NCBI RefSeq assembly: GCF_001854805.1
Contig: NZ_MBLO01000228.1
Location: 1 to 46,701 of the forward strand
Reading direction: 5' to 3'
Source: Pseudofrankia coriaricola
GTDB taxonomy: Bacteria > Actinomycetota > Actinomycetes > Frankiales > Frankiaceae
DNA length: 46,701 bases
Part shown: positions 2,731-34,153 of the stretch, in pieces
Numbering within the stretch: the stretch's first letter is position 1
Layout: every line of letters begins with the position of its first letter
Position numbers and translations under genes: made by a program
The notes under the pieces: generated by a model
Seen by the model: the letters and a program-made list of their open reading frames with translations, nothing else
Database searches by the model: none
What the model was told of the DNA's origin: nothing

Positions 2731-3572
2731 GACAGGCTCAGCTGCGGAACCGGCGTCGGCGTGGTCGCGATGGAGCCGGACTGCGCCAGCACCTGCAGGT
2801 CATCGACGCTCCAGGTCCCGAACCGGGGGCTCACCGACACCCCCAGCTGGCGGGAGACCTTGACCAGCTCGGGGGTGACCTTGTCCGTCCGGGCGGTTCC
2901 CATGACGATGTCGTGGGCCAGGAAGGACCGCAGCTGCGCGTAGCTGAGCGGCAGGGACTTCACCCCGAACTGGGCCAGCAGCGCGTCGTAGGCCGACTTC
3001 GCCTGCGCGTCCGAGCCGACCAGGTCCGGCGCGATCCGGTCCGCGATCTTGGACTCGAGCGCGTCGACGTGTACCTGCGCCCGCACGTCCTGCGGCGCGA
3101 ACCCGAGCACCCCGACGGCGTCCTCGAAGGCCGGGATGCCGCCGGCCTGGGTCACCGCGAGCGCCTGGTAGTAGGCGTCGAAGTCCTGCGAGGTGAGCGT
3201 GATCCCGAGCTCGTGCGCCTTCGCCTCATCCAGCCTGAGCCGGATGAGGGTGTTCAGCGCGCGGCGCTGCACGAGGTAATGGGTGACCGGGCCCTGCTGG
3301 GCTTCACGCTGCGCGACCACATCAGGATGCGCGGCGGCGTACGCCTTGTAGGCGGCCATGCCGCGGTCCGCGATGGCGCTCACGGTGGCCGTCTCGATCT
3401 TCTGGTCGTCGACCTGCGCGGCGGCGCCGGCATGGCTCGTGCAGGCGGTCATCGCCACCGCGACCAGCGCGAGCGCGGCACCCAACAGCGTCGCCCGAAA
3501 TGAGGACCGCCGGGCGCGCGAAGGAAGATCATTTTCGCGCACCCTTTGGCCGTGCAGACGTGGTGACTTCAC
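2727..3572 (-). CDS. SurA N-terminal domain-like lipoprotein
   Basis: A probable exported lipoprotein of about 281 residues. A basic N-terminus is followed by a hydrophobic stretch (ATLLGAALALVAVAM) and a lipobox MTAC with Cys44. The mature part is helical and resembles the SurA/foldase N-terminal chaperone module (LNTLIRLRLDEAKAHELGITLTSQ), with no PPIase domain. A role in folding secreted proteins is inferred. Three starts are possible: ATG 3635, GTG 3572 and GTG 3542. I prefer 3572 because a TAACGT -10 hexamer lies exactly 7 nt upstream, the usual layout of a leaderless actinobacterial mRNA. ATG 3635 has an AAGGG in reach but lies inside a 31-bp repeat. Between 3512 and 3544 the gene reads through a hairpin element also found in the 5' end of tyrS. 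The stop overlaps mazG. Confidence 0.75.
   Translation of the reverse strand: MKSPRLHGQRVRENDLPSRARRSSFRATLLGAALALVAVAMTACTSHAGAAAQVDDQKIETATVSAIADRGMAAYKAYAAAHPDVVAQREAQQGPVTHYLVQRRALNTLIRLRLDEAKAHELGITLTSQDFDAYYQALAVTQAGGIPAFEDAVGVLGFAPQDVRAQVHVDALESKIADRIAPDLVGSDAQAKSAYDALLAQFGVKSLPLSYAQLRSFLAHDIVMGTARTDKVTPELVKVSRQLGVSVSPRFGTWSVDDLQVLAQSGSIATTPTPVPQLSLS
3512..3544 (-). repeat. Hairpin element, copy 1 (inside the SurA-like gene)
   Basis: An 11-bp stem (GGGTGCGCGAA paired with TTCGCGCGCCC, one G-T wobble) with an 11-nt loop, preceded on the minus strand by GGCCAAA. Copy 2 lies at 34096-34128 in tyrS. Both are read in the same frame, giving similar peptides (QRVRENDLPSRARR here). One stem pair differs as C-G versus T-A between copies, so pairing is kept. 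Confidence 0.8.
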
Positions 3573-3579
3573 GGACGCC

Positions 3580-3585
3580 ACGTTA
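3580..3585 (-). promoter_or_regulatory. Candidate -10 element for leaderless start of the lipoprotein gene
   Basis: TAACGT on the minus strand, followed by 7 nt and GTG at 3572. This TANNNT-N7-GTG layout is typical of leaderless actinobacterial transcripts. No good -35 is visible. Confidence 0.4.
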
Positions 3586-3604
3586 GCTGCCCTAACAGGG
3601 GTGA

Positions 3605-3893
3605 CGCACCCGACCCTGTCCCAATGCCTCACCATTCACCGCCCTTCACGCCCGGAAGCTCAGAACACGCGGTCAACTGTGTGCTACCAACCCAACCACG
3701 ACCAGTGACGGCGCATCAGCGCTGGCACCAACCCAACCACGTCAGTGATCCGGAACCAGACGGACCACCGCCATAGCACCGAGCCGGAACTGCCCGAGAG
3801 GGCGCTCAGCGCCCGACAGGCGGTGCCCGGCGCCGGGCGCGAAGCGTCAGGCGCGGGACCGCCGCACCCGACCCTGTCCCAATGCCTCACCAT
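3605..3893. repeat. 31-bp direct repeat pair bracketing intergenic repeat material
   Basis: An identical 31-bp sequence (core CACCCGACCCTGTCCCAATG) occurs at 3605-3635 and 3863-3893. Between them lie two copies of a 15-mer, ACCAACCCAACCACG (3686-3700, 3727-3741), and a member of the dispersed composite repeat family. The 267-bp gap between mfd and the lipoprotein gene holds no convincing gene. Confidence 0.85.
3686..3862. repeat. Dispersed intergenic composite repeat, copy A
   Basis: Contains CCAGTGACGGCGCATCAGCGC, then ACCACCGCCATAGCACCGAG, then the palindromic core GAGGGCGCTCAGCGCCCGA (about 3797-3815), then a GC-rich tail with GCCCGGCGCCGGGC. The same blocks recur in the same order near 10.5, 13.2 and 40.1 kb. 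The hairpins here may also terminate mfd transcription. Confidence 0.75.
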
Positions 3894-3902
3894 CGACCGA
3901 CC

Positions 3903-7597
<3,695 letters not shown>

Positions 7598-7601
<4 letters not shown>

Positions 7602-8008
7602 CGGATCCGTCCCGGCCTCTTCCAGGTCCGGCGCGACCGCCGGACCTTGGATGTCGGTGTGTGCCCGCGCGGGCGCACGGTCTGGACTACAACAACGTCT
7701 CGGACTACAACGTCAGCCGGGCCGCGGCTTCTGCCGGCACACGGCACCGGAACTTCGGGCAGTTCTGGGCGCACGGCCGGGCGCCCGTCCGGCGGCCCGC
7801 TCGCCTGGCGGGCCTGAAGCAGGCCGTCGCCCGACCTGGATAAGGCCGTACCCCGTTCTGGTGCCCGCCGCGCCCGCGGCTGGCCGTCGGGCTTCCCGTC
7901 CGGTCCGCTGACCCAGATCTGCCGAGGCCCCTGCGCGCGACGACCATCAGGATAAACGATCATGAGGCCACGCGCGGCCAGAAGCCCGATAACAGCGAAC
8001 AACTCCAT
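7598..8008 (-). CDS. Possible small hypothetical protein upstream of mfd
   Basis: An open frame of 136 residues starting [20 protein letters not shown], with a hydrophobic N-terminus and a basic, low-complexity C-terminus. I recognise no family. The case for it is positional: its TGA overlaps the mfd ATG as ATGA, the signature of a coupled gene pair. A TACCCT hexamer lies 4 nt before the ATG, so a leaderless start is conceivable, but there is no Shine-Dalgarno sequence. The case against is its low-complexity composition in a very GC-rich region where long chance frames are common. The rest of the 7602-8203 gap shows nothing clear apart from a short direct repeat near 7681-7715 (GGACTACAACAACGTCTC / GGACTACAACGTC). 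Confidence 0.3.
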
Positions 8009-8203
8009 GGTCAGGGTACGGGAGGTCCCGGCTGCCCGCGCCGGCTCGTCCCCCCACCGAATTCGCCGGCCGCGGCCACCCGCCGAACGGGCGCACGCGG
8101 GATTGACGGGGTGGGCCGAATGGTCGGCGCGACGTACAGTCATCTGCCATCAGCTGGCCGGCCCGGTAGGGGCCTGCCAGTCTCACTTGACGTAAGGGTA
8201 GAG

Positions 8204-8644
8204 TTGTCCACCACGCGCCGTGGCCAGTCCACGCCAAGAACCGGTCGCGCCGACCTCTACCAGATCGGGGACGTCGCCGAGCGGGTCGACCTGTCGTTGC
8301 GCACCGTCCGCTACTACGAGGAGGCCGGTCTGCTGATGCCGGCCGGGCGTACCGCCGGCGGCTTCCGGCTGTACGACGAGGACACCGTGGAGCGGCTTTT
8401 CCTGATCAAGATGATGAAGCCCCTTGGCTTCACCCTTGAGGAGATGCGATCACTACTCACTCTGCGCGACGAGCTCTCGCGTCCGGGCCTTGCCCTGGAC
8501 GCGCGGGCCGCGCTGGAGGAGCGCTTGCGCACGTGGGTGGTGCTCGCCGAGGAGAAGCTGGCCGCCCTGCGCCAGCAGGTCGGCGTCGCGGAGGCATTCG
8601 TCTCCGGCCTGTACGACGACGCCGACCGATCGCGCCGCGGGTAG
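8204..8644 (+). CDS. MerR-family transcriptional regulator
   Basis: About 146 residues. The N-terminal winged helix-turn-helix is typical of MerR: LYQIGDVAERVDLSLRTVRYYEEAGLL, then GRTAGGFRLYDEDTVERLFLIKMMKPLGFTLEEMRSLL, followed by a long dimerisation helix (DARAALEERLRTWVVLAEEKLAALRQQV). No metal-binding Cys cluster follows, so the effector is unknown. I chose the TTG at 8204 because AAGGG sits 5 nt upstream and the sequence before it is not MerR-like; the frame is open back to an ATG at 8111. It stands alone between mfd (divergent) and a GH26-like gene (convergent), so its target cannot be named. Confidence 0.85.
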   Translation: MSTTRRGQSTPRTGRADLYQIGDVAERVDLSLRTVRYYEEAGLLMPAGRTAGGFRLYDEDTVERLFLIKMMKPLGFTLEEMRSLLTLRDELSRPGLALDARAALEERLRTWVVLAEEKLAALRQQVGVAEAFVSGLYDDADRSRRG

Positions 8645-8682
8645 CGGGCAGCCCCAGCCCCGAACCACACAGGCAGGGTGTC

Positions 8683-8705
8683 GCGCGCCCGCAAGGCGGG
8701 CGCGC
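8683..8705. terminator. Bidirectional hairpin terminator between merR-like and GH26-like genes
   Basis: A perfect 10-bp inverted repeat (GCGCGCCCGC and GCGGGCGCGC) with a 3-nt loop, placed between two convergent genes. No T-tract. Confidence 0.65.
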
Positions 8706-8715
8706 CGCGCTCGTT

Positions 8716-10008
8716 CTACTGGCTGGCCGACCAGAGCGAGCGGTAGGCCGCCGAGCCGTTGGGCTGCTGCACGGGGTTCGTGAGCGACGAGTTCACGTTG
8801 CGAGGGTCGCTGTCGTTGAAGTAGGCCTCGTAGGCGAGCATGCCCCTGTACTGCCGGAAGAGCCTGGCCATCTGCTGGATGTAGAACGGGTTGTCGCCGC
8901 CGGCCTGGCCCGCCTGGCCCGCCGGGGTGCCCTTGTCGACCAGCCCCCATTCCGGCACGGAGAACAGCTTGTTGTGCAGCTGCGCGAAGTTGATCACATA
9001 GCACGGCCCCGGCAGCAGCGGACCGTCCTCGCACTTGGCGTTGAACGACCCGGTGTCGTAGCTCGGCGGGTACTGGTCGTAGGTGTCGATCCCGATCACG
9101 TCGACGACATCGTCACCCGGGTAGGCGGAGAACGGGTCGCCGCCGTTTGGCAGCGTGGTGCGCGCGTTGATCGTCCAGTCGATCCGCACCCGCGGGGCCA
9201 CCGAGATCAGCGCGAGGGCCTCGTGGCGGAAGCACTGGACCCACTGCTGGGGGTTGGCGGCCTTCCAGGCGAACCACTTGCCGTTGAACTCCCAGCCGAT
9301 GCGGACGAACGAGTCCGATCGTCCCTGCCGGTTAAGCCAGTTGCCGAACTTGCGAAACTGGACGTCGAAGGCGCCGGAGGCACACTCCGCCATGCGCTGC
9401 TGGTTCCAGGTGTCGACGTTCGTGCCCGATGGCGGTTCCGGAAACATCGGCACGGAGACAACCCAGGTGCCGGGGAAGCTGCTGAAGTGGTTGGCGCTGT
9501 CGCCGATCCACGGTCCGGTGATCGACCCCCAGCTGTCGCGAGCGGTGAACATGACCACCACGTCGTTGGGCCGGCCGCGGTAGCTCGCGAAGGTGTTCGC
9601 CTGGCCGCTGTTGCCGGCGGACATCCCTGTCGGCCACGGGCCGTTGGTTCTCGCGGGCTGCGCGCGAGGCCGGGCGGGTGGCCCGCCGGGGGCGACGGCC
9701 GGCGCGGACGCGGCCGCCATGGCGGGGCCGGCGGGGGAGGCGGACGCGGCGGATGTCGAGGCGGCGGCCGCGAAGCCCCCGTCGTCGTCCTCGTGTTTGC
9801 CCGACTTGGGAGTCACCGCCCAGGCGGTGAGGCCCAGCACCAGGACGAGGGCGACCGCGATCCCCGGCAGCACGCGGCTTTTGAACCTCGCCCGGCCGCC
9901 CGAACGCTCGACCAGCCAGTCGTACCAGCGATGGGCCTCGTCACCGTAGTAGCGCAGCTCCTCGCGTGCGTGCTCCCGGGTCGATCCACCACGGCGGGTC
10001 ACCGACAC
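8716..10008 (-). CDS. Membrane-anchored GH26-like glycoside hydrolase (copy 1)
   Basis: A 430-residue protein with a cytoplasmic N-terminus, one membrane span (about residues 47-65) and an Ala/Pro-rich linker to residue 125, so the catalytic domain should face outward. That domain resembles GH26 (beta-mannanase/beta-glucanase clan A). RIGWEFNGKW supplies the likely acid/base Glu240 and SVPEWGLV the likely nucleophile Glu352, with IGIDTYD between them. The substrate is unknown. It is a clear paralogue of the lipoprotein at 19536-20666 (shared MFxxRDSWG, GWEFNG, YPGDDxVDxIG, FSVPEWG and SSLxNPV). The start is GTG 10008 with GGAGG 3 nt away; a second GTG six bases downstream is also possible. 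Trimming or release of the polysaccharide made by the neighbouring cluster is an inference. Confidence 0.8.
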   Translation of the reverse strand: MSVTRRGGSTREHAREELRYYGDEAHRWYDWLVERSGGRARFKSRVLPGIAVALVLVLGLTAWAVTPKSGKHEDDDGGFAAAASTSAASASPAGPAMAAASAPAVAPGGPPARPRAQPARTNGPWPTGMSAGNSGQANTFASYRGRPNDVVVMFTARDSWGSITGPWIGDSANHFSSFPGTWVVSVPMFPEPPSGTNVDTWNQQRMAECASGAFDVQFRKFGNWLNRQGRSDSFVRIGWEFNGKWFAWKAANPQQWVQCFRHEALALISVAPRVRIDWTINARTTLPNGGDPFSAYPGDDVVDVIGIDTYDQYPPSYDTGSFNAKCEDGPLLPGPCYVINFAQLHNKLFSVPEWGLVDKGTPAGQAGQAGGDNPFYIQQMARLFRQYRGMLAYEAYFNDSDPRNVNSSLTNPVQQPNGSAAYRSLWSASQ

Positions 10009-10939
10009 TCACCTCCGTCGCGGTGTGGCGCCACCCGACCAGGGCAGGGTGAGTCAGTGGCGCCCAAAAGGTACCGAAACTTACTACGTCCGCCGGCCGC
10101 GCCCCGGGGCAGCATGGCGAAGCCGAGCACGCCGCGACACGCCTGGACTCGCCGGATCTGAACGCGAGCACACACCGTGACCATCCCCAGGTCTTCCCTC
10201 GTTGCCGCCCAGCCTGGACAAGAACGGCAAGAACAAGAAGAGGACGCTTTACGCGAGCCGGTGGTTGCCAGCCCGGTACCCACGCACGAAGCCTGGTGAC
10301 GGACCAGGAAGGCATATCACCCGTTCCCAGGCAGCCCCGATCCACCGTGCGCCAAGCGGACGTTCAGGCACGCGCCGTTGTGAATCCGCCACTGTGCGAT
10401 CCCGGACACCCGCTGGGCTCCGACCAGCCCCAGCCCCCTACCACCGCCATAAGCCAGGGCCCGGAACCACCTAAGGAAGGCGCCCCGCGCCCGACAGACA
10501 TCCCGCCGGCTGACGCGTCACCCGCCGAAGCCGACGCGGCGCCCAAGCCGACGCGGCGCGTACCAGGGCCCGGTACCACGCAGGGAGGGCGCTCAGCGCC
10601 CGACCAGGCGGCGCCCGGTGGCGGGCGCGGAGCGTCCGGCCGCGGGACCGCCCCAGCCTGCGCGGACCGAGAAGTTCAGTACGGTACGGTTACTGCGGCA
10701 GCGTCCCGGACGTCACCGCGGGAGTGGGAGCAGCTGATCTTTCGGACCCGCCAGGACCCGCGGTCCCTGCCAGGGGAGCGGTCCCTGGCTCCCACCGGCG
10801 GCCCGGCCGTCTCGGCCACGACCGGCCAGGGCTGTGGCCACCTCGGCCAGGTCGCCCGACGTTGCCCCGGCCCGCTCGTTTGCCGGCAGACCAACGCCCG
10901 GGAGCATGCCCGGGTCCGACTCTGGGAGAACAAACAGCC
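10009..10939. other. Gene-free 931-bp gap carrying repeats and the rfbF upstream region
   Basis: No convincing gene. The stretch from about 10420 to 10660 is made of dispersed repeat blocks. Near 10677-10695 a TACGGTACGGTTAC stretch could supply plus-strand -10 hexamers for the rfbF operon, but I cannot assign a matching -35. The remainder lacks coding character in all frames. Confidence 0.6.
10420..10660. repeat. Dispersed intergenic composite repeat, copy B
   Basis: Contains CCACCGCCATAAGCCAGGGC, a partial duplicate of the CAGGGCCCGGNACCAC block, and the palindromic core GGAGGGCGCTCAGCGCCCGA (about 10582-10601), followed by GGCGGCGCCCGGTGGCGGGC and GGACCGCC. Block order matches copy A. Confidence 0.75.
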
Positions 10940-11779
10940 GTGACACCCCCGAGCTCGGCTTCCACGCCGGCCCGCACCGTCCCCGGCGCCGCGGACATCC
11001 CGGTCGTCATCCTCTGCGGTGGGATGGGCACCCGGCTGCGCGAGGCCAGCGAGAAGCTGCCGAAGCCGCTGGTCGACATCGGCGGCAAGCCGATCCTCTG
11101 GCACATCATGAAGACCTACGGGCACTACGGCTTCCGGCGCTTCATCCTGTGCCTTGGCTACAAGAGCGACGCCATCAAGAACTACTTCGTCAACTACCGC
11201 GAGCAGGTGGCGGACTTCACGCTGAAGCTTTCCGACGACCACACTCCCGAGTTCCACAACGCCGAGGGCGACGAGGACTGGGAGGTCACCTTCGCGGAGA
11301 CCGGCCTGCTCAACGGCACCGGGGCCCGGCTGCACCGCGTCCGCCAGTACCTCACCGGCCCACGTTTCCTGCTCACCTACGGTGACGGCGTCGGTGCCAT
11401 CGACGTGGCCGCGCTGTTCGACGCGCACCTGCGCGGCGGCCGGATGGGCACCGTGACCGGGGTGCGGCCCTCGAGCCGGTACGGAGAGCTGGAGACGGAC
11501 GGCGACGGCGTCACCCTGTTCGCCGAGAAGCCCCCGCAGACCGGCTGGGTCAGCGGTGGCTACTTCGTCTTCGAGCGCGAGTTCGCCGACAAGTACGTCG
11601 ACGACGACCCGTCGCTCATGTTGGAGCGTTACCCGCTGCAGCAGCTCGCCCGCGACCGGCAGCTCTCCCTGTACCCGCACGACGGGTTCTGGATGGGGAT
11701 GGACACGTTCCGGGACTGGACCGAGCTCAACCAGCTCTGGGATGCGGGCGCCGCTCCGTGGCGCGTCTGGACCGACTGA
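10940..11779 (+). CDS. rfbF: Glucose-1-phosphate cytidylyltransferase-like enzyme (RfbF family)
   Basis: A 279-residue nucleotidyltransferase with the signature VVILCGGMGTRLREASEKLPK followed by PLVDIGGKPILWHIMKTYGHYGF. The further RfbF blocks are FILCLGYKSDAIKNYFVNY, LLTYGDGVGAID, GVRPSSRYGEL, GWVSGGYFVFE and HDGFWMGMDTFRDW. RfbF makes CDP-glucose from CTP and glucose-1-phosphate, the entry step to CDP-activated deoxysugars. The GTG start at 10940 has GGGAGA about 10 nt upstream. It heads a plus-strand operon: the next gene begins 14 bp after its stop. A recognisable CDP-glucose 4,6-dehydratase does not follow; the extended SDR at 31322-32347 could supply a later step. Confidence 0.92.
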   Translation: MTPPSSASTPARTVPGAADIPVVILCGGMGTRLREASEKLPKPLVDIGGKPILWHIMKTYGHYGFRRFILCLGYKSDAIKNYFVNYREQVADFTLKLSDDHTPEFHNAEGDEDWEVTFAETGLLNGTGARLHRVRQYLTGPRFLLTYGDGVGAIDVAALFDAHLRGGRMGTVTGVRPSSRYGELETDGDGVTLFAEKPPQTGWVSGGYFVFEREFADKYVDDDPSLMLERYPLQQLARDRQLSLYPHDGFWMGMDTFRDWTELNQLWDAGAAPWRVWTD

Positions 11780-11793
11780 GTCCACTCGTCACC

Positions 11794-13155: not shown

Positions 13156-13179
13156 GCGTCAGCCTTCCAGCGACGCACG

Positions 13180-13300
13180 CTGTCAACCCAGCCACCTCGT
13201 CTGCCCAGACAGACGCCGACCACCGCCATGCACACCGACCTGTGACCAGGTCAGGAGGGCGCTCAGCGCCCGATGGTCGGGGCGCCCCGCGCCCCGACCC
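13180..13300. repeat. Dispersed intergenic composite repeat, copy C
   Basis: Carries CTGTCAACCCAGCCACCTCGTC, ACCACCGCCATGCACACCGA and the palindromic core GGAGGGCGCTCAGCGCCCGA (about 13256-13275), then a second inverted repeat, GGTCGGGGCG / CGCCCCGACC (about 13275-13298). It fills the gap between the DUF4910 gene and the IspD-like gene inside an apparent operon. Confidence 0.75.
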
Positions 13301-13301
13301 C

Positions 13302-14081: not shown

Positions 14082-14091
14082 GGGGAATCTG

Positions 14092-22898: not shown

Positions 22899-22940
22899 AA
22901 GCCCGGCTCCAGAGGACGTCTCGTCCCTGGAGCCGGGCTT
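22899..22940 (-). terminator. Intrinsic terminator of the Wzz-like gene
   Basis: A perfect 14-bp inverted repeat, AAGCCCGGCTCCAG / CTGGAGCCGGGCTT, followed on the minus strand by a TTTTTCTTTC tract: a textbook Rho-independent terminator, rare in DNA this rich in GC. It lies 19 bp after the stop codon. Confidence 0.9.
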
Positions 22941-22958
22941 GGACCCGCGTCTTGATTC

Positions 22959-24509: not shown

Positions 24510-24595
24510 CGCTCCGCCTCACTTCCAACTTGACGCGGTCGAGTTCCGCGATCCCGAGGGAGCCACCGAGAGGCTCCGCATTGGCGCGCTCTGGC

Positions 24596-24663
24596 ACCTC
24601 ACGACGGCAGATACCTCACGGCGGTGGGGTACCTCCACGACGACCAACACCTCACGACAGCAG
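24596..24663 (-). promoter_or_regulatory. Four tandem iterons upstream of the Wzz-like gene
   Basis: ACCTC-headed repeats start at 24596, 24613, 24631 and 24649 (spacing 17, 18, 18). The consensus on the plus strand is ACCTCACGACGGCAG; the third copy carries an inserted C. The even spacing of under two helical turns suggests cooperative binding of a regulator. They lie within the 265-bp gap between the Wzz-like gene and the next gene upstream. Confidence 0.65.
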
Positions 24664-24774
24664 TTCTCTTGACCTTGAGGCCCGGAATGTGAGCATAGCC
24701 CAGCCGGCCGAGGCACAAATCGCCAGGGCGGCAACACCCCGCCAATCCCCGGGAGTTCGCGCGTGGGCGCCGGC

Positions 24775-25680: not shown

Positions 25681-25685
25681 GTGGC

Positions 25686-28394
25686 TCACTCCACGCTCAG
25701 GTGCTTCGATGCCGGCGCGCCGCGTCCCGGGCCGGAGCGCTGGTCCCGGTCCCGCTCGCCGCGCCGGTCCCGCCGGTCACTGTGCTCCAGCCGGTCGTCC
25801 ACCCGGTCCGGCTGGTCTCCCCCGGCCCCGGGGTCGCTGGGCCCTTGTCCCTGCGCGGCCTGGGTCTCGTCCCACGCTTGCTCGGCCTCCTTGGCTGCCC
25901 GGCGCAGCAGCCGGAACCAGGCCGGCACCATGACCCAGTTGGCCACGATAAATCCGATCACCGCGCCGGTCCCACCACCGATCAGCGCGCCGATGACCGG
26001 GTACAGCAGCAGCTGCGGCGCCATGATGACGTTCAGGCGGAAGGTGTCCCTCGCCCGGCCCAGCGCGATGAGCATGCAGCTCACGCCGACCGTGAACGCG
26101 GCACCTGCCTGCTGGATGATCGAAAGCGCAAGCAGGTGGTACGTGCCGGCCCAGGTATCTTCGAGAAGGTACTCACCGAGCGGCTTGCCACCGGCCTCGA
26201 TCTGGCCGAGGAGCAGGAAGCCGAGGCCCCAGACGATGCCCAAGCCGGCGACGGCCGCGGACAGCAGGTAGGCGGCGCGCACCCGGGCCGCGGCGGTCAT
26301 GTCCTTGCGCTGGGAGAACTCCGGGATCGCCCAGCTGACGATGCCCACCGCAAAGATCGTCGTCGGGCCGAGGACCGTCTGCACGCCACGCAGCGCGCCC
26401 AGCAGCTCGATCGTGCTGATGGCGCCGATCACCAGCAGGGTGGCGTTCAGCGCGCCCTGCACGGTGACGAACTCGGCGGCGAGAAAGCCGTTGATGTCCC
26501 GGTGCTCGCGGACCCAGTCCAACGCGCGGCTGGGGGCGGGCCAGAACCCGGCCTGCACCACGCCGATCAGGGCGGCCACGGCCGCGGCCGCGCCCCAGGC
26601 GAGCAGCATCGGCGAGGCGAGCGCGACGTGGCGGACCAGGAGCACGGCCACGCCGACGATCTGGACGACGCCCCAGACCCCGTCGTTGGCCGCCGCCGCC
26701 GCCGGGCGACCCTGCGCGAAGAACACCTGCCGCCACAGGTCCTGCACGAGCAGGCCCGGCAGCACCACCGCGAGCGTCACGAGCGCCGTCCCGACCGCGC
26801 CGCCTATCAGCGCGCCGACCACCGCGCAGCCGAACCCGGCGATCAGACCGAGCACGAGCGCCAAGCCGGTGGCCTTCGCCGCCGCGGCCGAGAACACCGA
26901 CCGCGGAGCGCCGGAGTACCGGATACCCAACGGCTGACCGCCGGTGGCCTTGGAGAACCCGATGACGACGGAGAACACCGCGAAGGCGGCCGCGAAGGCG
27001 CCGAACTCCGACTTGGTGACCTCCCGCGCGACGATGAACATCAGGATCGAGTTGGTGCCACTGGAGATGAGCTGGTCGAGCAGCGTCCACAGCGCCCGGC
27101 CGCGGGTGGAGCCCTTGGCCGGAGTGGCCGCGTCGCCGTCGCGCGCCCAGGTCGCGGGTGCGCGACGGCGCGGCTCCTCGACGAGGTCCAGGTCGCGCAG
27201 GCCCAGCTCGTCCGCGTCATCCGCCGGCGGGCGGCGGCGGCCGGCCGGGTCGCGGTAGAGAAACTGGGTGCCGTCGACGTCGGCGCCGGGTCGGCCTCGC
27301 TCGTGAAGCCGCGCCGTGGCGTCGGAACGGCTGGCCGCGTCCTGCTCCTCCAGCCGGCGGCGCAGCGCGGTGAGGTCGATCGTCTGGGTGAAGCTGTTCA
27401 TGAAGCTGCTCTGGAAGGGCTGCGGCAGGCCGCGGTCCTCCCGCGAGCGGGCGCGAGGCTGTTCGCCCTCCCGTGCTCTGCCGGAACCTGGCTGGCGGTG
27501 AGGCTCCTGACCGTCCCGCGGGCGTCCCACGGCGGGTCCCGGCCGCGGGCGTCCCGCGGCCGGTCCGGCCGCGGCCGGACCGGCCGGTGAGCCGGGCTCC
27601 CCCGGGCGCCCCCCCGGCCCCCGCGCGGACCTGGGCACGAACGACTCGGCGGGTGGCGGCGCGGAGGTGGGCGCGCCGCGGCGCGGCGCGGCGCCGTGAT
27701 CGCCCCCGGGGCGCGGCGCGGCGCCGTGATCGCCCCCGGGGCGCGGCGCGGCGCCGTGATCGCCCCCGGGGCGCGGCGCGGCGCCGTGATCCGCCCCGGG
27801 GCGCGGCGCGGCGCCGTGATCCGCCCCGGGGCGCGGGACGCGGGTGCGCTCCGCCCGCGCGTCTGCGCGGGAGATCACCTCGGTCCGCTCAGTGGCGGCC
27901 GGTCCGTCTGGACGCGGCCGGCCGGTCCGCTCGCCGCGGTCCGGGCGATCCGCCCGCGCGTCGGGACGGGAAATCACCTCGGTGCGCTCGACGGCGGCCG
28001 ACCCGTCTGGACGCGCTCGGCCGGTCCGCTCGGCGCCGGCCGGGCGGTCCTGGCGGTCAGGGCGGACGGGACGACGAGGAGGCTCGGGCGGGTCAACCTG
28101 GGCAGGGCGGCGCGGCTGGCCTGGTCGGGCCGACCGGTCGGGTCGGCCGGCGCGCGGATCGTCGCCGCGGGCGCGCGGATCGTCGCCGCGGGCTTCGTTC
28201 CCGCGGGCAGGCGGCGGCTCCACCGGGCCGCCGGGCGCCGGGGGGCGGTGCCCGGCGTGGCGCCCAGGCCCCGCCGCTCCTGGCGGTTCCACCTCGGGCG
28301 TCCAGGGACGGTCCGCGGGAGCGTCCCGCCCAGGGCCGTCCGGCGGGGGGCGCCGGGGCCGCTCCCGGTCGTCCTCGATGTCCAGGTCGGTCAT
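25686..28394 (-). CDS. Wzx-like polysaccharide flippase with long disordered N-terminal region
   Basis: About 902 residues in two parts. Residues 1 to roughly 430 are Pro/Arg/Asp/Gly-rich, mostly low complexity, and include five decapeptide repeats (DHGAAPRPGG type) and two copies of an ERTGR-RPDG-ERTEVISR block. From about 430 to 870 there are about a dozen membrane spans typical of the MOP/Wzx family (WTLLDQLISSGTNSILMFIV, EFGAFAAAFAVFSVVIGFSK, ALVTLAVVLPGLLVQDLWRQ and others), ending in a charged tail. It would flip lipid-linked repeat units across the membrane. Normal Wzx proteins are 400-500 residues, so the N-terminal extension is the anomaly; a scaffold or regulatory role is speculation. 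ATG 28394 is chosen as a plausible start, though without a clear Shine-Dalgarno; the frame is open to 28496. Confidence 0.82.
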   Translation of the reverse strand: MTDLDIEDDRERPRRPPPDGPGRDAPADRPWTPEVEPPGAAGPGRHAGHRPPAPGGPVEPPPARGNEARGDDPRARGDDPRAGRPDRSARPGQPRRPAQVDPPEPPRRPVRPDRQDRPAGAERTGRARPDGSAAVERTEVISRPDARADRPDRGERTGRPRPDGPAATERTEVISRADARAERTRVPRPGADHGAAPRPGADHGAAPRPGGDHGAAPRPGGDHGAAPRPGGDHGAAPRRGAPTSAPPPAESFVPRSARGPGGRPGEPGSPAGPAAAGPAAGRPRPGPAVGRPRDGQEPHRQPGSGRAREGEQPRARSREDRGLPQPFQSSFMNSFTQTIDLTALRRRLEEQDAASRSDATARLHERGRPGADVDGTQFLYRDPAGRRRPPADDADELGLRDLDLVEEPRRRAPATWARDGDAATPAKGSTRGRALWTLLDQLISSGTNSILMFIVAREVTKSEFGAFAAAFAVFSVVIGFSKATGGQPLGIRYSGAPRSVFSAAAAKATGLALVLGLIAGFGCAVVGALIGGAVGTALVTLAVVLPGLLVQDLWRQVFFAQGRPAAAAANDGVWGVVQIVGVAVLLVRHVALASPMLLAWGAAAAVAALIGVVQAGFWPAPSRALDWVREHRDINGFLAAEFVTVQGALNATLLVIGAISTIELLGALRGVQTVLGPTTIFAVGIVSWAIPEFSQRKDMTAAARVRAAYLLSAAVAGLGIVWGLGFLLLGQIEAGGKPLGEYLLEDTWAGTYHLLALSIIQQAGAAFTVGVSCMLIALGRARDTFRLNVIMAPQLLLYPVIGALIGGGTGAVIGFIVANWVMVPAWFRLLRRAAKEAEQAWDETQAAQGQGPSDPGAGGDQPDRVDDRLEHSDRRDRRGERDRDQRSGPGRGAPASKHLSVE
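27691..27840 (-). repeat. 30-bp minisatellite, five units, inside the flippase gene
   Basis: Five consecutive 30-bp units start at 27691, 27721, 27751, 27781 and 27811; units 1-3 share GTGATCGCCCCCGGGG and units 4-5 GTGATCCGCCCCGGGG. They are in frame and encode a decapeptide repeat in the disordered N-terminal region. Copy number is likely to vary between strains. Confidence 0.92.
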
Positions 28395-28565
28395 GGGAAG
28401 GCACCGCGCACGGCGACAACCGGCCGGAGCGCGGGTGCCTTCGCCTTCGCCGACGCCTGGCCACGGCGGTGGATGCCTTCCCCGGGCCAGCGCCACGGGC
28501 CCTCGACGGGCCGCTCCTCGAGGCCGGCGAACACGGCGGCCCGCCTCGTCGTCCTCATCCGCGGC

Positions 28566-29822
28566 CTACAGGACGACCGGGCGCGGCACGGGGACGATGA
28601 ACCTGCCGCCGCGCGCCGCGTACTCGGCCTGCTGCGCCATGATCTCGTTCTTCACGTTCCAGGCGAGCAGAAGCAGGTAGTCGGGCTGCCGCTCCTGGAG
28701 CGCCTCGGGCGGCAGGATCGGCAGCCGGGCGCCCGGCATGTACTTGCCCTGCTTGTGCACGTTGCGGTCGACCACGAAGTCGATCAGCTCGGTGTTGATG
28801 CCGGTCGAGTTGAGCAGCGTGGCGCCCTTCGCGGCGGCGCCGTAGGCCGCGACCGTCCTGCCCTGTGCTTTCAGGTCCGTCAGCAGCGCGCGCAGCTGCG
28901 TCTGCAGCTCGTTGACCTCGGCGCCGAAGCTGCCGTAGCGCTCGAACGAGTCGAGCCCGGCGGCCCGCTCGGCGGCGAGCACCCGCCCGGCCGACTCATC
29001 CGGGGTGACGGCGCCCGCGTGGGCCATCCGCCAGCGAAGCGTCCCGCCGTGCAGTTCGGGGAACTCGGTGACCCCGACGAGCTCGAGGCCGTGGCGGCGC
29101 ATCAGCGCCTCGACCGCGATCGTCGAGAAGTAGCAGAAGTGCTCGTGGTAAACGGTGTCGAACTCGGTGTGCGCAAGCAACGCGCCCACACCCGGGTTCT
29201 CCACGCTGACGACGCCGTCATCCTTGAGCAGGATCGAGAATCCCTCGACGAAGCTGTTCAGGTCCGGCACATGCGCCATCACGTTGTTCGCGATGATCAC
29301 GTCGGCGCGCAGGCCCTCGTCGACGAGGCGCTGGGCGAGCTCGGCGCCGAAGAACTCCTCACGCGTCGGCACGCCGATCTCCCGGGCCGCCGACGCCGGG
29401 CCCGGTGTCGGCTCGATGCCGAGCACCGGGATTCCACGCTCGACGAACGCCTTGAGCAGGTAGCCGTCGTTGCTCGCCACCTCGACCACCAGGCTGGTGG
29501 GGCCGAGGTTACGGCTCTCGATCAGGTCGATGACCTGCTTCTCGGCGTGCCGGACCAGCATGTCGGAGAACGACGAGAAGTACGGGTAGTCCTCGTCGAA
29601 GATCTGGTCGGCCGGCAGCACATGCGTGAGCTGGACAAGCGCGCAGCTCTCGCAGAAGCCGACCTCGAGCGGGAAGCTCGGGTCGACGGCGTCCAGCGCG
29701 TCCGCGCGGACCAGCCGATTGGCGATCGGCGTCGCGCCCAGCGACAGAAACGGCCTCGGCCGTTCGCCCCCGCACGACCGGCACGTCGTCACCTCGGTGG
29801 CCGCGGCCGCTTCCCCTGCCAT
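28566..29822 (-). CDS. NDP-sugar C-methyltransferase
   Basis: A 418-residue enzyme with the three-part layout of sugar C-methyltransferases such as TcaB9 and TylCIII. The N-terminal zinc finger is CRSC (Cys14, Cys17) with FCESC (Cys57, Cys60). The SAM domain has VVEVASNDGYLLKAF (about 112-126) and the catalytic cluster YHEHFCYFS (Tyr225, His226, Glu227, His228). The C-terminal Rossmann-like domain has TVAAYGAAAKGATLLNSTGI and PVPRPVVL. These enzymes add a methyl branch, usually at C3 of a 4-keto-6-deoxy nucleotide sugar. It therefore predicts a branched sugar, in line with the RmlC-like epimerase and extended SDR upstream. ATG 29822 has AGGGG 5 nt upstream. Confidence 0.92.
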   Translation of the reverse strand: MAGEAAAATEVTTCRSCGGERPRPFLSLGATPIANRLVRADALDAVDPSFPLEVGFCESCALVQLTHVLPADQIFDEDYPYFSSFSDMLVRHAEKQVIDLIESRNLGPTSLVVEVASNDGYLLKAFVERGIPVLGIEPTPGPASAAREIGVPTREEFFGAELAQRLVDEGLRADVIIANNVMAHVPDLNSFVEGFSILLKDDGVVSVENPGVGALLAHTEFDTVYHEHFCYFSTIAVEALMRRHGLELVGVTEFPELHGGTLRWRMAHAGAVTPDESAGRVLAAERAAGLDSFERYGSFGAEVNELQTQLRALLTDLKAQGRTVAAYGAAAKGATLLNSTGINTELIDFVVDRNVHKQGKYMPGARLPILPPEALQERQPDYLLLLAWNVKNEIMAQQAEYAARGGRFIVPVPRPVVL

Positions 29823-30154
29823 GCGTTCCCCTGCCCTGTGAATCCGGCCCGGTGGTCGGGCCGGACATATGGTCTCGCCGCTCGTCGTCCTACGGCTCGG
29901 CGCCAGCCGAAGCTGGTGTGAGCCTCATGGTCCCCATGCCCGGCGGGAGGGGCGACGCACCTGCCAGATATCCGACCAGACAGATGTGACGATCCCGCTA
30001 ACTGACGGGCACAGACAGCCGGCCGCGCAGGCCAGCCAGGCGTATGGCCTGGACCCTCTCGCGCCGTCATGGTATCGCCCGCCTCGCGCTGGCCTGGGAA
30101 GGCACATGCCTGGGCACGCGGTCGGATCGCCCGGGGCGAGCCGTGGCGGAGCAC
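29823..30154. other. 332-bp gene-free gap with a hairpin
   Basis: No gene seen. A perfect 9-bp inverted repeat, TCCGGCCCG / CGGGCCGGA, with a 5-nt loop lies at 29843-29865, within the likely 5' leader of the C-methyltransferase gene. The rest shows no clear motif. Confidence 0.5.
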
Positions 30155-30721
30155 CTATGCCTGGCCGGCACCCACCCCCGGCCGGGAGGCCCCGTCGGTC
30201 AGCAAAGGCCAGGAGCGGTCCTTGTCCGAGATCACGGTTACGGGCAGCGGCCAGGCGATGCCGAGCACGGGATCGTCGTGTCGCAGCCCCCGGTCGTGCC
30301 CCGGTTGGAAGGGCACGTTCATCTGGTACGTGGCCTCGGTGTCGTCCGTCAAGGTCTGGTAGCCATGCGCGAGGCCCGCGTCGATGAAAAGCGCGCGCCG
30401 GTTGTCCGCCGTCAGCTCGACGGCGACATGACGCAGCCAGGTCGGCGAGCCGGGCCGAGTGTCGACGATCACATCGAGCAGCGCCCCCCTGGTCACCCGG
30501 ACGAGCTTCGTCTCGCGCACCGGCTCGCCCGCCCAGTGCATGCCGCGGACCGTCCCGGCGCGCCGGTTGTAGGCGACGCTGCACTGGGCGACGTCGACCG
30601 CGAGCCCGGCGGCGGCGAACTCATCCCGGCAGAACGTCCGGGCGAACAGGCCACGTTCGTCGGTGAACGCCTCGACGTCGACGAGGAACACCCCGTCGAT
30701 CTCGGTCGGCGTGATGATCAC
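30155..30721 (-). CDS. dTDP-4-dehydrorhamnose 3,5-epimerase-like (RmlC family) sugar epimerase
   Basis: A 188-residue cupin of the RmlC family. Conserved blocks are FLVDVEAFTDERGLFARTF, GTVRGMHWAGEPVRETKLVR (catalytic His62, Lys72), GALLDVIVDTRPGSPT, IDAGLAHGYQTL (His119) and GLRHDDPVLGIAWP. The usual Tyr in the YxP segment that acts as acid in RmlC appears as Phe138 (NVPFQP), so it may be a single-carbon epimerase or act differently; this alignment is by eye. GTG 30721 is the start, with AGGGGG 6 nt upstream. It probably epimerises the 4-keto sugar handled by the neighbouring C-methyltransferase. The C-terminus is slightly extended. Confidence 0.88.
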   Translation of the reverse strand: MIITPTEIDGVFLVDVEAFTDERGLFARTFCRDEFAAAGLAVDVAQCSVAYNRRAGTVRGMHWAGEPVRETKLVRVTRGALLDVIVDTRPGSPTWLRHVAVELTADNRRALFIDAGLAHGYQTLTDDTEATYQMNVPFQPGHDRGLRHDDPVLGIAWPLPVTVISDKDRSWPLLTDGASRPGVGAGQA

Positions 30722-31321
30722 GAGAAACCCCCTGTGTTGCTGGTTCGCCCCGTCCGGGCGGCGCGCTCCGGCCCGGAGTTGGATCCGGGGCAGGACAGAG
30801 ACCCGGACGGGGTCGGGCGGGAAGGTTGTTGCTGGTTCGCTCCGTCCGGGCGCGGCGCTCCGGCGCCGTCCTCGCCTGGCGGCTCGGACGACACCTCCAC
30901 GCCGCGTCCTCCTCCGCTCACGGGCGCTCCGGCGACCTCGCTGCGGCCCGGCCATGTTCGCTTCGCTCCATGGCCGGGCCTCCGCGAGGCGCGCCTCCGC
31001 GCCAGCACGGTCACCTTCCGCTGGACCGTTCCGGAACCCCATTCGGGCTGGTGCCGAGGGCACGTCGCTGCGCTCGCGCAGGCGGGGTTCACATCCGGCC
31101 AACGGCCAAAACCGGACTGGTGACGATCCAGCGCAACGTCACCGGGCTGGCCCGGAGGCGCACCTCGCGGAGGCCCGGCCCACGAGCGAAGCGACGTGGA
31201 CCGGGCCGCAGCGAGGTCGCCGCAGGGCACGTTCGCGGAGGAGGACACGGCGCGGAGGTCCCTTGGGAGCGAAGCGAGTAAGGGGCCGTAGCGCCGTGTC
31301 CGCACGGAGCGAACCAGAGAC
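30722..31321. repeat. 600-bp gene-free gap containing a long inverted repeat
   Basis: Two arms of about 205 bp lie in inverse orientation at roughly 30834-31040 and 31115-31318. Matching blocks include CTGGTTCGCTCCGT, TCCTCCTCCGC, GGCGACCTCGCTGCGGCCCG, GTCGCTTCGCTC-like and GGGCCGGGCCTCCGCGAGG. The arms are clearly similar but not identical. A third, partial copy of the outer end lies at 30733-30760. Long frames in this region are by-products of the repeat. The gap separates the RmlC-like gene from the epimerase gene on the same strand. Confidence 0.8.
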
Positions 31322-32347
31322 TCAGTATGTCCAGAAGAGGTCGGCGTCGAGCTGCTTCGTGGCGATGAGGTACTGCAGCTGCTTGAGCCGGGTGTGGCCG
31401 CGGCCGGTGAACGTCGCTTCGTCGAGGTCGATCCTCGAGAACACGTCGTACAGCTGCTGGGCACCGCGCAGCGCGTTCCAGTCGCACGAGAAGCCGGGCA
31501 GCTGGGCGTGGATCTTGTCGAAGTTCACCCGGTAGCTGCGGTTGTCCCCACCGCTGTCACCGAAGCTGAGCTTGCAGCCGGTGAACACCGTCGCGACGGC
31601 GTCGGCGATCTCCCTGACCTGGTAGTTCTGCGAGCTGTCACCGACATTGAAGATCTCGTTGTGCACGGCGTCACGCGGGGCGTCCAGCACGCACCTGATC
31701 GCCTTGGCGATGTCCAGGCCGTGAACCAGCGGCCGCCACGGGGTGCCGTCGGAGGTCATCGCGATCTCGCCGGTGGTCCAGGCGACACCGGAGAGGTTGT
31801 TCAGCACGATGTCGAATCGCATCCGCGGCGACGCTCCGTAGGCGGTCGCGTTGCGCAGGAAGGTCGGCGAGAAGGTGTCGTCCGCCAGGGGCGTGACGTC
31901 GCGCTCGACCAGCACCTTGCACTCGGCGTACGGCGTCTGCGGGTTCACCTCGGACTTCTCAGTGACATCCTGGCCGGTGGCCACGCCGTAGACGCTGCAG
32001 GAGGACATGTACACGAAGCGCTCGACGCCGGCCTGCTTGGCCAGGGTCGCCAGGTGCACCGAGCCCTGGTGGTTCACCTTGTAGGTGACGTCGGGCGCCA
32101 GCGCGCCGAGCGGGTCGTTGGACAGCTCGGCCATGTGCACGACCGCGTCCACCCCGGCGAAGTCCTCGACGGTAAGGCTGCGCAGGTCCTTGTCCAGGGT
32201 GAGCGCGGTCCGGTCGGTACCACGGTAGAGCCAGCCGTACTTGTAGTAACCGGTGTCGACACCGATGACGTCGTGGCCGGCGCGAAGCAACTCGGGCGCC
32301 AGCAGGTTGCCGAGGTATCCCTCCGTGCCCGTGACGAGCACCTTCAT
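31322..32347 (-). CDS. NAD-dependent sugar epimerase/dehydratase (extended SDR)
   Basis: A 341-residue extended SDR. The NAD-binding loop is VLVTGTEGYLGNLLAPELL (Gly7, Gly10, Gly13). The active site has MSSCSVYG and the intact Tyr140-x3-Lys144 (TPYAECK). FLRNATAYGASPRMRFD and PLVHGLDIAKAIRCVLDAP are typical of nucleotide-sugar epimerases and dehydratases. The exact reaction (4-epimerase, 4-ketoreductase or dehydratase) cannot be told from sequence alone. Homologues of this type are often found beside sugar C-methyltransferases, and it is likely the partner of the downstream RmlC-like and C-methyltransferase genes, although 600 bp of repeat DNA lies between. ATG 32347 has GGGAGGACTCG just upstream. 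Confidence 0.9.
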   Translation of the reverse strand: MKVLVTGTEGYLGNLLAPELLRAGHDVIGVDTGYYKYGWLYRGTDRTALTLDKDLRSLTVEDFAGVDAVVHMAELSNDPLGALAPDVTYKVNHQGSVHLATLAKQAGVERFVYMSSCSVYGVATGQDVTEKSEVNPQTPYAECKVLVERDVTPLADDTFSPTFLRNATAYGASPRMRFDIVLNNLSGVAWTTGEIAMTSDGTPWRPLVHGLDIAKAIRCVLDAPRDAVHNEIFNVGDSSQNYQVREIADAVATVFTGCKLSFGDSGGDNRSYRVNFDKIHAQLPGFSCDWNALRGAQQLYDVFSRIDLDEATFTGRGHTRLKQLQYLIATKQLDADLFWTY

Positions 32348-32766
32348 GCGCGAGTCCTCCCGCTACTCCAGGGCGCCGCGGCTCGTGGCCCGCCAGCCGC
32401 GCGGCCGGGTGACCACGGCCCTCTGGTCCGCTGTTCCACATCGACCGGATGTCCGGACACGCGCCATCGCGGTTATGCGCCGCCGGCTCAGGGCAGGGCC
32501 GATGCTCAGCTCAGAACCGTACCGACCGCCGGCACTGCCACCGCGACCGCCGCCCCAGAAGCGGAGCGCGGGTCGCGAGGCCATCACGCTGCGCGGCACC
32601 GACAGCCGCCTGCGTTCCCGCGCCCCTCGGTTGTCACGGTGACACTCGCGGCGGCACTTCCAGGGGAGGCCCAGGCCGCGGACACCCCATGGACCACGGA
32701 GCCCAACCGAGCGGGTTCGCGACGGGCTGGTCCGCGAGGGGGCCGCCGGAGAACCCGACGGCCTAC
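32348..32766. other. Gene-free gap upstream of the epimerase gene
   Basis: About 420 bp with no convincing gene. It contains the perfect palindrome TGTCCGGACA (32450-32459), about 100 bp upstream of the epimerase start, as a possible operator. Confidence 0.45.
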
Positions 32767-32792
32767 CCGGTTCCCCGGCGCCGGGGAACCGG
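32767..32792 (-). terminator. 26-nt perfect palindrome terminating tyrS
   Basis: CCGGTTCCCCGGC followed directly by its reverse complement GCCGGGGAACCGG, 2 bp past the tyrS stop. It would form a very stable hairpin in the transcript. Confidence 0.7.
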
Positions 32793-32794
32793 TC

Positions 32795-34153
32795 CTAGGA
32801 GAACCGGACCACGCGCCACTCGCGGCGGCCGCGGCGGACAAGGACCACCGAACCCTGCAGCAGGTCGGTTGTGACAAGCGCCGCCGCGGTGTCGGTCACC
32901 TTGGTGCCGTTGACGAGGACGGCGCCGTTGCCCACGTGCTCGCGGGCGTCCCGCTTGCTGCTCGCGAGCCCGACGGCGATCAGCAGGTCGACGACCGGCC
33001 AGCCGTCACCCTCGAGCCTGGAAGCCGGCTCGGTGACGCTCGGCACGTCGGCGAACACGTCACCCAGCATCTCCGCGCCGATGGCGCGCACATCGCCCCG
33101 GAACAGGGCCTCCGAGGCCGCCTCGGCCGCTTCCATCGCCGCCTCGCCATGCACCAGCGTCGTCATCTCGCGGGCCAGGTGACGCTGCAGCGCCCGGCGC
33201 GCGGGGGTCTCCGCGTGCTGGGCGAGCAGCTTCTCCAACGGCTCCCGCCCGGTGAGCGAGAAGAACAGCGCGAACCGGCGGGCCTCTTCGTCCGAGAGAT
33301 TGACCACAAACTGGTAGAACGTGTACGGCGAGGTGCGGTCGCCAGAGATCCAGACCGAGCCCTTCTCGGACTTACCGAACTTGGTGCCGTCGGAACGCAG
33401 CAGCAGCGGGCAGGTGATCCCGTACACCGGGGTGCGCAGCACCCGGCGCACGTAGTCGATGCCGGCCACGATGTTGCCCCACTGGTCGGACGCGCCCATC
33501 TGCAGCGTGACCCCGTGGTCCTCGCACAGCCGGCGGAAGTCGTACGCCTGTAGCAGCGCGTAACTGAACTCGGTGTAGGACAGACCGACGTTCGGGTCGT
33601 CCAGCCGGCGGCGGACCGTGTCCCGCCTGGTCATCTCGCCGACCGGGAAGTGCTTGCCGACGTCCCGCAGAAACTCGACCATGCCGAGCCGGCCGAGCCA
33701 GGACGCGTTGTCGAGGAACAGCGGCATCTGCTCCGGCTCGAGGGCTCGCGCGAAGATCCCGCGCATCAGCTCCTGATGGCGCGCCACGTTCGCGGCGACG
33801 TCCTCGGGCGACAGCAGTGTGCGTTCGACGGATTTCCCGGACGGGTCACCGATGAGGCCGGTACCGCCGCCGAACAGCACCACAGGCGCGACACCGGCCC
33901 GCGCGGCCCGGATCAGCAGGGTCATCGGCAACAGGTTGCCGATCGTCAGCGATGGCGCCGTCGGGTCGAAGCCGATGTAGACGCGTCGCGCACCACCGTC
34001 GAGATGTTCCCGCAGCTCAGCGGGATCGGTGCTGTCGTGGATCAGCCCACGCCAGGACAGCTCCTCCAGTAGTGATCCTGGGGACGACGGCCGCCGGGCG
34101 TGCGAAGAAAGAGCATTTTCGCACGCCCTTTGGCCATCCAGCGCGCTCGTCAT
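32795..34153 (-). CDS. tyrS: Tyrosyl-tRNA synthetase
   Basis: A 452-residue class I synthetase that charges tRNA-Tyr. The catalytic core has RVYIGFDPTAPSLTIGNLLP, where the HIGH-type motif reads TIGN (70-73). It continues with LFGGGTGLIGDPSGKS, SYTEFSYALLQAYDF, LQMGASDQWGNIVAG and the KMSKS-type loop KFGKS (258-262). A C-terminal S4 RNA-binding domain follows (LASSKRDAREHVGNGAVLVN). The first 26 residues are an extension: between ATG 34153 and the conserved LLEELSWRGL there is no other ATG, GTG or TTG, so the hairpin element at 34096-34128 must be translated, giving QRACENALSSHARR. A TAGCAT hexamer lies 6 nt before the ATG, suggesting a leaderless message. It sits unexpectedly within the polysaccharide region. 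Confidence 0.95.
   Translation of the reverse strand: MTSALDGQRACENALSSHARRPSSPGSLLEELSWRGLIHDSTDPAELREHLDGGARRVYIGFDPTAPSLTIGNLLPMTLLIRAARAGVAPVVLFGGGTGLIGDPSGKSVERTLLSPEDVAANVARHQELMRGIFARALEPEQMPLFLDNASWLGRLGMVEFLRDVGKHFPVGEMTRRDTVRRRLDDPNVGLSYTEFSYALLQAYDFRRLCEDHGVTLQMGASDQWGNIVAGIDYVRRVLRTPVYGITCPLLLRSDGTKFGKSEKGSVWISGDRTSPYTFYQFVVNLSDEEARRFALFFSLTGREPLEKLLAQHAETPARRALQRHLAREMTTLVHGEAAMEAAEAASEALFRGDVRAIGAEMLGDVFADVPSVTEPASRLEGDGWPVVDLLIAVGLASSKRDAREHVGNGAVLVNGTKVTDTAAALVTTDLLQGSVVLVRRGRREWRVVRFS
34096..34128 (-). repeat. Hairpin element, copy 2 (inside tyrS)
   Basis: A perfect 11-bp stem, GGGCGTGCGAA / TTCGCACGCCC, with an 11-nt loop whose sequence (AATGCTCTTTC on the minus strand) closely matches copy 1 at 3512-3544. 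Both copies are preceded by GGCCAAA and followed by GGCGG on the minus strand, and both are read in the same frame. Confidence 0.85.

Follow-up and report, generated by a model that had tools for sequence, protein, structure and literature searches.

A stretch of 46,701 nucleotides (nt) from the actinobacterium Pseudofrankia coriaricola (contig NZ_MBLO01000228.1, positions 1 to 46,701; hereafter the window) contains two copies of a 69-nt palindromic unit that probably represents a family of small, non-autonomous mobile palindromes. These resemble the repetitive extragenic palindromes (REPs), insert precisely and often do so on stop codons. The stop codon is the main target of the family, and copies read in frame at the 5' ends of genes are a minority outcome. 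Comparison of genomes shows a precise, one-sided and duplication-free insertion at CT^RACGG (the caret marks the junction) or just before the CT, with a strong link to stops. The 11.2-Mb genome of the window is numbered G000 below, and its congeners are G001 to G007.

A sequence-only reading of the window had described same-type hairpins at 3512-3544 and 34096-34128 on the minus strand, with GGCCAAA before and GGCGG after them, and this description holds. The stems differ at two pairs (T.G vs C-G, and C-G vs T-A, the T-A being compensatory), translation in one common frame gives QRVRENDLPSRARR and QRACENALSSHARR, and tyrS has no in-frame ATG, GTG or TTG from its ATG to the WRGLIHDSTD stretch. 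The segment AATGACGAGCGCG of TyrS is retained in all eight genomes aligned. The 33-nt hairpin is real, but not as the unit: the repeat is 69 nt long (3489-3557 and 34073-34141), and the 33 nt are its core. The features concerned are as follows.

34073..34141, minus strand: 69-nt copy within tyrS (23 codons, LDGQRACENALSSHARRPSSPGS), a match to the covariance model and an exact 69-nt difference from six relatives
34096..34128, minus strand: hairpin core of the tyrS copy, 11-bp stem and 11-nt loop, from the consensus fold and pair counts
34066..34072, minus strand: insertion target CTACTGG, directly 3' of the tyrS copy as read on the minus strand; most relatives with an empty site have GCG^CTA
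32795..34153, minus strand: tyrS (tyrosyl-tRNA synthetase; Pfam tRNA-synt_1b, E=3.8e-66, and translation), with the 69-nt copy after its fourth codon (M-T-S-A)
3489..3557, minus strand: 69-nt copy whose right part has diverged, a covariance model match; lies at the 5' end of the SurA-like gene
3512..3544, minus strand: hairpin core of the lipoprotein copy, from the sequence
2727..3572, minus strand: SurA-like lipoprotein gene, from the GTG at 3572; SurA_N_3 is weak and under the Pfam cut-off, with nothing at E 1e-5

The two copies belong to a numerous family. The pattern GGCCAAAGGGN{6,9}AAAATGNTCTT has 92 exact matches in the P. coriaricola genome, 46 per strand, against none for the reversed control pattern, so the hairpin repeat lies far above chance. 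A lack of further copies would have counted against the sequence-only reading, which had proposed a covariance-model search of this and related genomes; that search found many. With a model built from 28 copies and 150 candidates scored per genome, the matches among the candidates scored numbered at least 152 in G000, 95 in G006, 62 in G005, 22 in G004 and one to five in each of the remaining four congeners. The unit is laid out as CTAGAG-GGCC-AAA-(11-bp stem, 11-nt loop)-GGC-GGCC-GTTGTCCCCAGGATCA, and its commonest form, CTAGAG GGCC AAA GGGTGTGCGAA AATGATCTTCC TTCGCACACCC GGC GGCC GTTGTCCCCAGGATCA, is identical in 24 of the 89 copies with full flanks (three of the 92 were left out for want of these). 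Their identity points to a recent burst of copies within one species. A copy lies within 200 nt of the end of at least 15 contigs in the assembly.

The hairpin itself is well supported. The unit folds at -16.7 kcal/mol as single-stranded DNA (z -3.8) and at -31.6 kcal/mol as RNA (z -3.9). Among 23 sequences, three other genera included, the stem cells are paired in 97.9% of cases vs 31-50% with the partner slid, and 30 double-sided changes across five stem pairs are compensatory changes that support it. Units also stand in head-to-tail arrays with a spacing of 66 or 69 nt. Such arrays, the many degenerate copies and the failure to find an enzyme would suit a relic family, no longer mobile and multiplied by gene conversion and tandem duplication; given that 24 units of the genome are identical and that close relatives have precisely empty sites at loci unrelated to each other, we consider this very improbable.

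The link to stop codons was measured on 58 full-ended arrays, taken from 72 with at least 150 nt of flank after the exclusion of 14 without a recognisable right end. At 27 of the 58 the neighbouring gene ends exactly at the junction, in 15 cases with the same-strand TAG (or TAA) that follows the unit's first C and in 12 with the complement of CTA, on the opposite strand. Another 28 arrays lie neither at a stop nor in a gene, and three are gene-interior. Unoccupied CTRACGG sites in the same sequence coincide with stops in 2 of 70 cases (Fisher p 2e-9), and CTRRNGG sites in 8 of 597. At L020, L039 and L042 a stop arises only through the TAG supplied by the element, the flanks alone having none. 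Pfam domains (E up to 1e-5) occur in 24 of the 27 stop-site genes (13 of 15 same-strand, 11 of 12 opposite-strand), which include those for monomeric isocitrate dehydrogenase, adenylosuccinate synthetase and RNase Y.

Selection rather than targeting could produce a similar picture if insertion took place at loosely CT-like sites anywhere and only copies at harmless positions, such as stops and intergenic DNA, survived; within this explanation, hairpins at 3' ends may also be favoured as mRNA stabilisers. It agrees with the rarity of gene-interior insertions (3/58), and an excerpt of PMC3733652 reports, de novo, REPs beside 3' ends with termini giving TAG. Intergenic CTRACGG sites should be equally harmless, yet stops account for 27 of 55 arrays vs 2 of 35 control sites once gene interiors are dropped (p 8e-6). 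Furthermore, the position is exact to the base: at the element-free joint a stop falls at offset 0 in 24 of the 58, and only zero or one falls at each of 20 other offsets. Selection alone is, in our judgement, an unlikely explanation.

The association recurs in other genomes. In G006, four of eight sites of a first set are at stops, two of the four genes having a Pfam domain; a NusG-domain gene ends at L178 (G011, another genus), and an ornithine/lysine monooxygenase gene does so at L182 (G016). Of 41 model matches in a further set, 14 are at stops vs a mean of 0.8 of 41 when shifted, with 8/12 in G006, 4/9 in G015, 1/3 in G004, 0/2 in G009 and 0/1 in G014. The 41 were drawn from 48 matches, the others being weak or the opposite strand of a better match, and the test used for them was less strict, as it tolerated an offset of a few nt and accepted all three stops; the shifted positions served as its control.

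Empty sites in relatives provide the second line of evidence. The flanks of 20 sites of the P. coriaricola genome were joined without the element and searched across the genus, and ten of the sites were then aligned. The tyrS site is empty in six of seven congeners, where it reads ATGACGAGCGCG^CTACTGG or a close variant, and exactly 69 nt are inserted in G000 and G005. Base-by-base alignment across the joint was obtained in at least one relative at seven of the ten sites (tyrS, L063, L073, L009, L046, L048 and L017); at L036, L029 and the minus copy of L041 relatives also lack the element, but one flank has diverged. No target duplication was seen in the aligned empty sites. At L009, G006 has CCCCGAGATCA ahead of the target, perhaps an element remnant.

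In addition, a second set of ten older or composite sites was searched, and six of them, together with L065, were aligned. The acyl-CoA dehydrogenase gene is empty in three of three relatives aligned and L062 in two of two. The OB-fold gene, which holds three tandem units (201 nt), is empty in six of seven congeners by BLAST and in two of three by alignment, and G005 has 24 other nucleotides at the site. The PrmC-like gene is filled in G005, with no copy in G006 and G001. The SurA-like gene is filled in G005, has its hairpin deleted in frame (36 nt) in G006 and cannot be aligned in G001 and G003; at L065, G006 has no element and the flank alignment is poor. For glnE, the site is filled in G006 and G000, which share derived letters (TCGTTCTCAGGAGCA), empty in G005, and occupied by a different linker sequence in G001 and G004. 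G005 is nearer than G006 to G000 at six of seven loci compared and equal at one. Because this closer relative is empty, the absence of the copy from G005 (L158), set against L011 and L159 (G006), looks like precise loss or allele replacement.

Some structural variants of the unit were met at these and other loci. Near position 1944 of L130, on the minus strand, a unit has lost its entire hairpin near the two GGCC feet; together with the SurA-like copy of G006, this suggests recurrent hairpin deletion. At the isocitrate dehydrogenase stop of G005 (L147), a short tandem CTGACGG...CTGACGG...CTGACGG stands in place of the element. A second palindrome (GGGGTTCCTGCCGGATCG...CGATCTGGGAGGTC) is nested after the CGGC of the unit at L013, L033 (plus copy), L055 (both copies), L071 and L072. 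At the L013 and L033 loci, G005 (L080) and G006 (L089) have a plain element without it. The minus copy of L055 has about three nested levels of this palindrome. Within about 299 kb of P. coriaricola sequence that was fetched, the right arm of the second palindrome was found 17 times, eight of these near a 69-nt element.

Placement and empty sites also bear on a question that the sequence-only reading had left between two possibilities, a mobile palindrome comparable to Rickettsia palindromic elements (RPEs) and a 5' RNA regulator placed after leaderless starts. The former is borne out by the many further copies, the in-frame insertions and the empty sites. The latter would be a cis-acting attenuator or leaderless-mRNA element, a hairpin conserved in the 5' region of tyrS and other genes and translated incidentally. 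It has in its favour the strong RNA fold, a conserved loop and the two 5'-end positions in the window. Nevertheless, 27 of 58 arrays stand exactly at gene 3' ends, 15 along and 12 against the gene orientation, and another 28 are outside genes and away from stops; copies occur in both orientations; six of seven congeners lack the tyrS copy; and the window has no Rfam match at the gathering threshold. With placement and empty sites against it, the RNA regulator was rejected as barely credible.

The target is read on one side only. Insertion takes place directly 5' of CT(A/G)ACGG, in either orientation relative to genes. The right flanks (58 rows) read C-T-(A/G)-A-c-G-G-G and are informative over about 7 nt, and the left flanks (67 rows) show no preference upstream of the element's left end. 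Copies whose two ends differ speak against a duplicated core. Since CT is common to both ends, the cut point is ambiguous, and a cut at CT^RACGG with a unit AG...CT would fit equally. Two transposon types do not fit the data. A miniature inverted-repeat transposable element of a DDE transposon would have a target-site duplication, but the aligned empty sites show none, and the right flank is CTG in many copies with CTA on the left; a TA-duplicating (IS630-like) insertion was rejected since CTG forms the right flank in 23 of 58 cases and CTA prevails on the left. A guide was also considered. The foot of the hairpin contains CCGTTG, which can pair with TRACGG, yet an equally good pairing arises in 7% of shuffles. 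Of 110 guides, a few rows being spurious, 62 are identical; among the variable ones, where covariation is unconvincing, L064 fits its target by eye and L181, L132, L056 and L178 do not. Guide-target pairing is kept as a weak lead only.

How, then, might such a palindrome move? A trans-acting enzyme would excise and insert the hairpin in single-stranded form, in the manner of HUH/Y1 enzymes (IS200/IS605, TnpA-REP), and an excised 69-nt form, if circular, would carry the junction ATCACTAGAG. Insertion at CT^RACGG would separate the T of a stop codon T^RA from its other two letters. Whichever strand is concerned, the AG that the element brings with its 5' end would restore TAG and leave the protein unchanged; copies landing inside a gene would survive only in frame. 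We infer HUH/Y1-like handling because the target is one-sided, CT stands at both ends, duplication is lacking, arrays are head-to-tail and glnE is cleanly empty in the closer relative. That the enzyme is of Y1 type we hold only tentatively, the remainder of our belief going to some other enzyme. Somewhat doubtful is a reading in which the family targets the stop codon itself, its AG...CT ends regenerating TAG either way, by means of a non-Y1 enzyme conserved across Frankiaceae genera and with the gain of safe sites in gene-dense genomes. A recombinase with a dinucleotide core (a serine recombinase, or an IS110-type enzyme with core CT) acting in trans would account for CT at both junctions and the lack of target duplication, and the ATCA-CT-AGAG junction of tandem arrays resembles a donor joint. 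It is improbable, as there is no sequence preference left of CT, the junction dinucleotides differ at L010, L020, L046, the array of L043 and L131, and the search for an autonomous element sharing the right end found none.

Several observations weigh against stop-targeted mobility by means of a Y1-type enzyme. Mobility is inferred from genome comparison, movement itself being unseen. The P. coriaricola genome has no match to Y1_Tnp (PF01797), a search that did not extend to IS110, Y2 or serine recombinase genes. Y1_Tnp occurs in 17 of 35 genomes of the family with no relation to copy number, and is absent from seven of the ten genomes with at least 14 element matches (G000, G004, G005, G006, G009, G011 and G018). 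G024 (124 matches), G015 and G021 have one each, and several match-free genomes also have some. No longer, autonomous parent was found among the places that carry the element's right end. As for stops, 31 of 58 full-ended arrays have none detectable at the junction, only L178 and L182 among nine loci of other genomes outside G006 are at stops, and G005 yields one of 14 in the further set. The coding-frame test was a purpose-made codon score and not a gene finder. A first scoring, with rival frames over different lengths, gave 8 of 58; the final scoring also changed the scored length and thresholds, which were set before any control. Finally, the logo rows had been chosen by parts of the ends themselves (left, C[TC][AG]; right, GGATCAC), and the presence of these letters in the logos therefore carries no independent weight.

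The search for a driver nevertheless covered several levels. A resident RAYT (REP-associated tyrosine transposase) or other Y1 driver was sought in the P. coriaricola, genus and family genomes and was rejected, none being present in the first; within the genus, Y1_Tnp was found in one of eight genomes (G007, itself with a single weak element match). The right end of the element, with at most one mismatch, occurs at 83 places in the P. coriaricola genome, most of them beside a known left hairpin by eye, and some cut by a contig edge (C65, C106, C191, C255 and C265). The remaining right ends, fetched as nine regions, were all hairpin units except one with its hairpin deleted.

Copies inside genes obey the reading frame. 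Forward gene-interior copies are read in the unit's single open forward frame (frame 0, 23 codons), and two reverse frames are also open. Coding sequence continues on both sides of the copy in tyrS and glnE and in the SurA-like, acyl-CoA dehydrogenase, PrmC-like and OB-fold genes; an amidohydrolase (L063) and a short-chain dehydrogenase (L065) each have a reverse copy near the N-terminus. At L071 and L056 the gene may begin only after the element, and other rows of the in-frame list look spurious. In the SurA-like gene the element codes for part of the region ahead of the hydrophobic signal segment; the context of the GTG at 3572 is common to G000, G005 and G006, with ATG 3635 as the other possible start. 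In-frame insertion alongside empty homologues, the mark of RPEs, was found in tyrS, glnE, the acyl-CoA dehydrogenase gene and the OB-fold gene. Three open frames of six are already the commonest outcome for a shuffled unit; coding adaptation of the unit was therefore rejected, and survival, not design, accounts for the frame. In-frame translation is a by-product of insertion.

In the collections searched, the element family is confined to Frankiaceae. Model matches occur in 19 of 35 genomes of the Frankiaceae, with 124 in G024, from which one locus was fetched. Under stricter filters, 11 of 246 genomes of the class had matches, all within Frankiaceae. The exact pattern was found on two contigs, both of the genus Pseudofrankia, in an 84,980-species collection that possibly does not include the P. 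coriaricola genome. Viral contigs, PLSDB plasmids and INPHARED phages contained no 69-nt element, and a virus, plasmid or phage source was rejected accordingly.

The window also contains other repeats. An intergenic family around GAGGGCGCTCAGCGCCCGA occurs at 3798-3833, 13255-13290 and 40206-40302, and includes an exact 46-nt tandem pair at 40211-40302. An 84-nt repeat pair with a spacing of 119 nt lies at 39943-40145, with a shorter related copy at 3669-3717, and a large imperfect inverted repeat spans 30832-31317, with arms of 148 nt (82%) and 49 nt (82%).

The significance of these results is that empty sites provide evidence, exact to the base, for a palindrome whose insertion into a stop codon restores that codon. 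In the excerpt of PMC3733652, 3'-end placement and TAG-giving termini of REPs are reported as positions and not as insertion events. Among the papers listed from the literature searched, titles and the beginnings of abstracts gave no description of this palindrome family, and in the main text of a paper on Frankia insertion sequences (PMC2770080) nothing starts with palindrom, MITE, hairpin or stop codon. Conserved proteins (TyrS, GlnE and PrmC-like) carry 23 inserted residues and the OB-fold protein 67, a warning for annotation that some N- and C-terminal extensions are mobile DNA. Furthermore, the recent burst and the Y1-free status of seven of the ten copy-richest genomes make the mover of REP-like palindromes testable in actinobacteria.

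Among known systems, as far as the excerpts cited go, REPs are the closest. They are given as 20-40 bp, mostly extragenic and near 3' ends, with GTAG termini that often supply TAG to open reading frames (ORFs); some lie inside ORFs, tRNA synthetase genes included, and CGTC REPs have no dedicated transposase (PMC3733652). The E. coli REP transposase cleaves at CT, 5' or 3' of the palindrome (PMC8266576). The present family likewise consists of a small palindrome in about 100 copies (92 exact here), mostly extragenic, near 3' ends and sometimes in ORFs. It differs in its longer 69-nt unit, two-part stem, 11-nt loop and CTRACGG target; in the terminal CTAG of its most frequent units, where REPs have an unpaired GTAG/CGTC tag; and in its head-to-tail arrays, such dimers being rare among REPs. 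Unlike the GTAG superfamily, it has no cognate RAYT/Y1 gene in its own genome, a trait that it shares with CGTC REPs. RPEs, about 150 bp long, are also translated in frame in unrelated genes (PMC10969869), and RPE-4 and RPE-6 have been classed as CGTC REPs (PMC3733652). The likeness drawn here is one of behaviour, and in-frame copies are a minority here, stops being the main site. IS608 inserts 3' of a short target kept in its left flank, and its guide lies 5' of the foot of a subterminal hairpin (PMC5934647). With IS200/IS605 elements the family shares the one-sided target and the lack of target duplication, whereas its unit has neither tnpA nor tnpB, a single hairpin serves both ends, and the counterpart of the guide is the weak lead described above. 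The 69-nt element is best placed among REP-like mobile palindromes, as a family that belongs to Frankiaceae, inserts at stop codons and enters genes in frame as a by-product.

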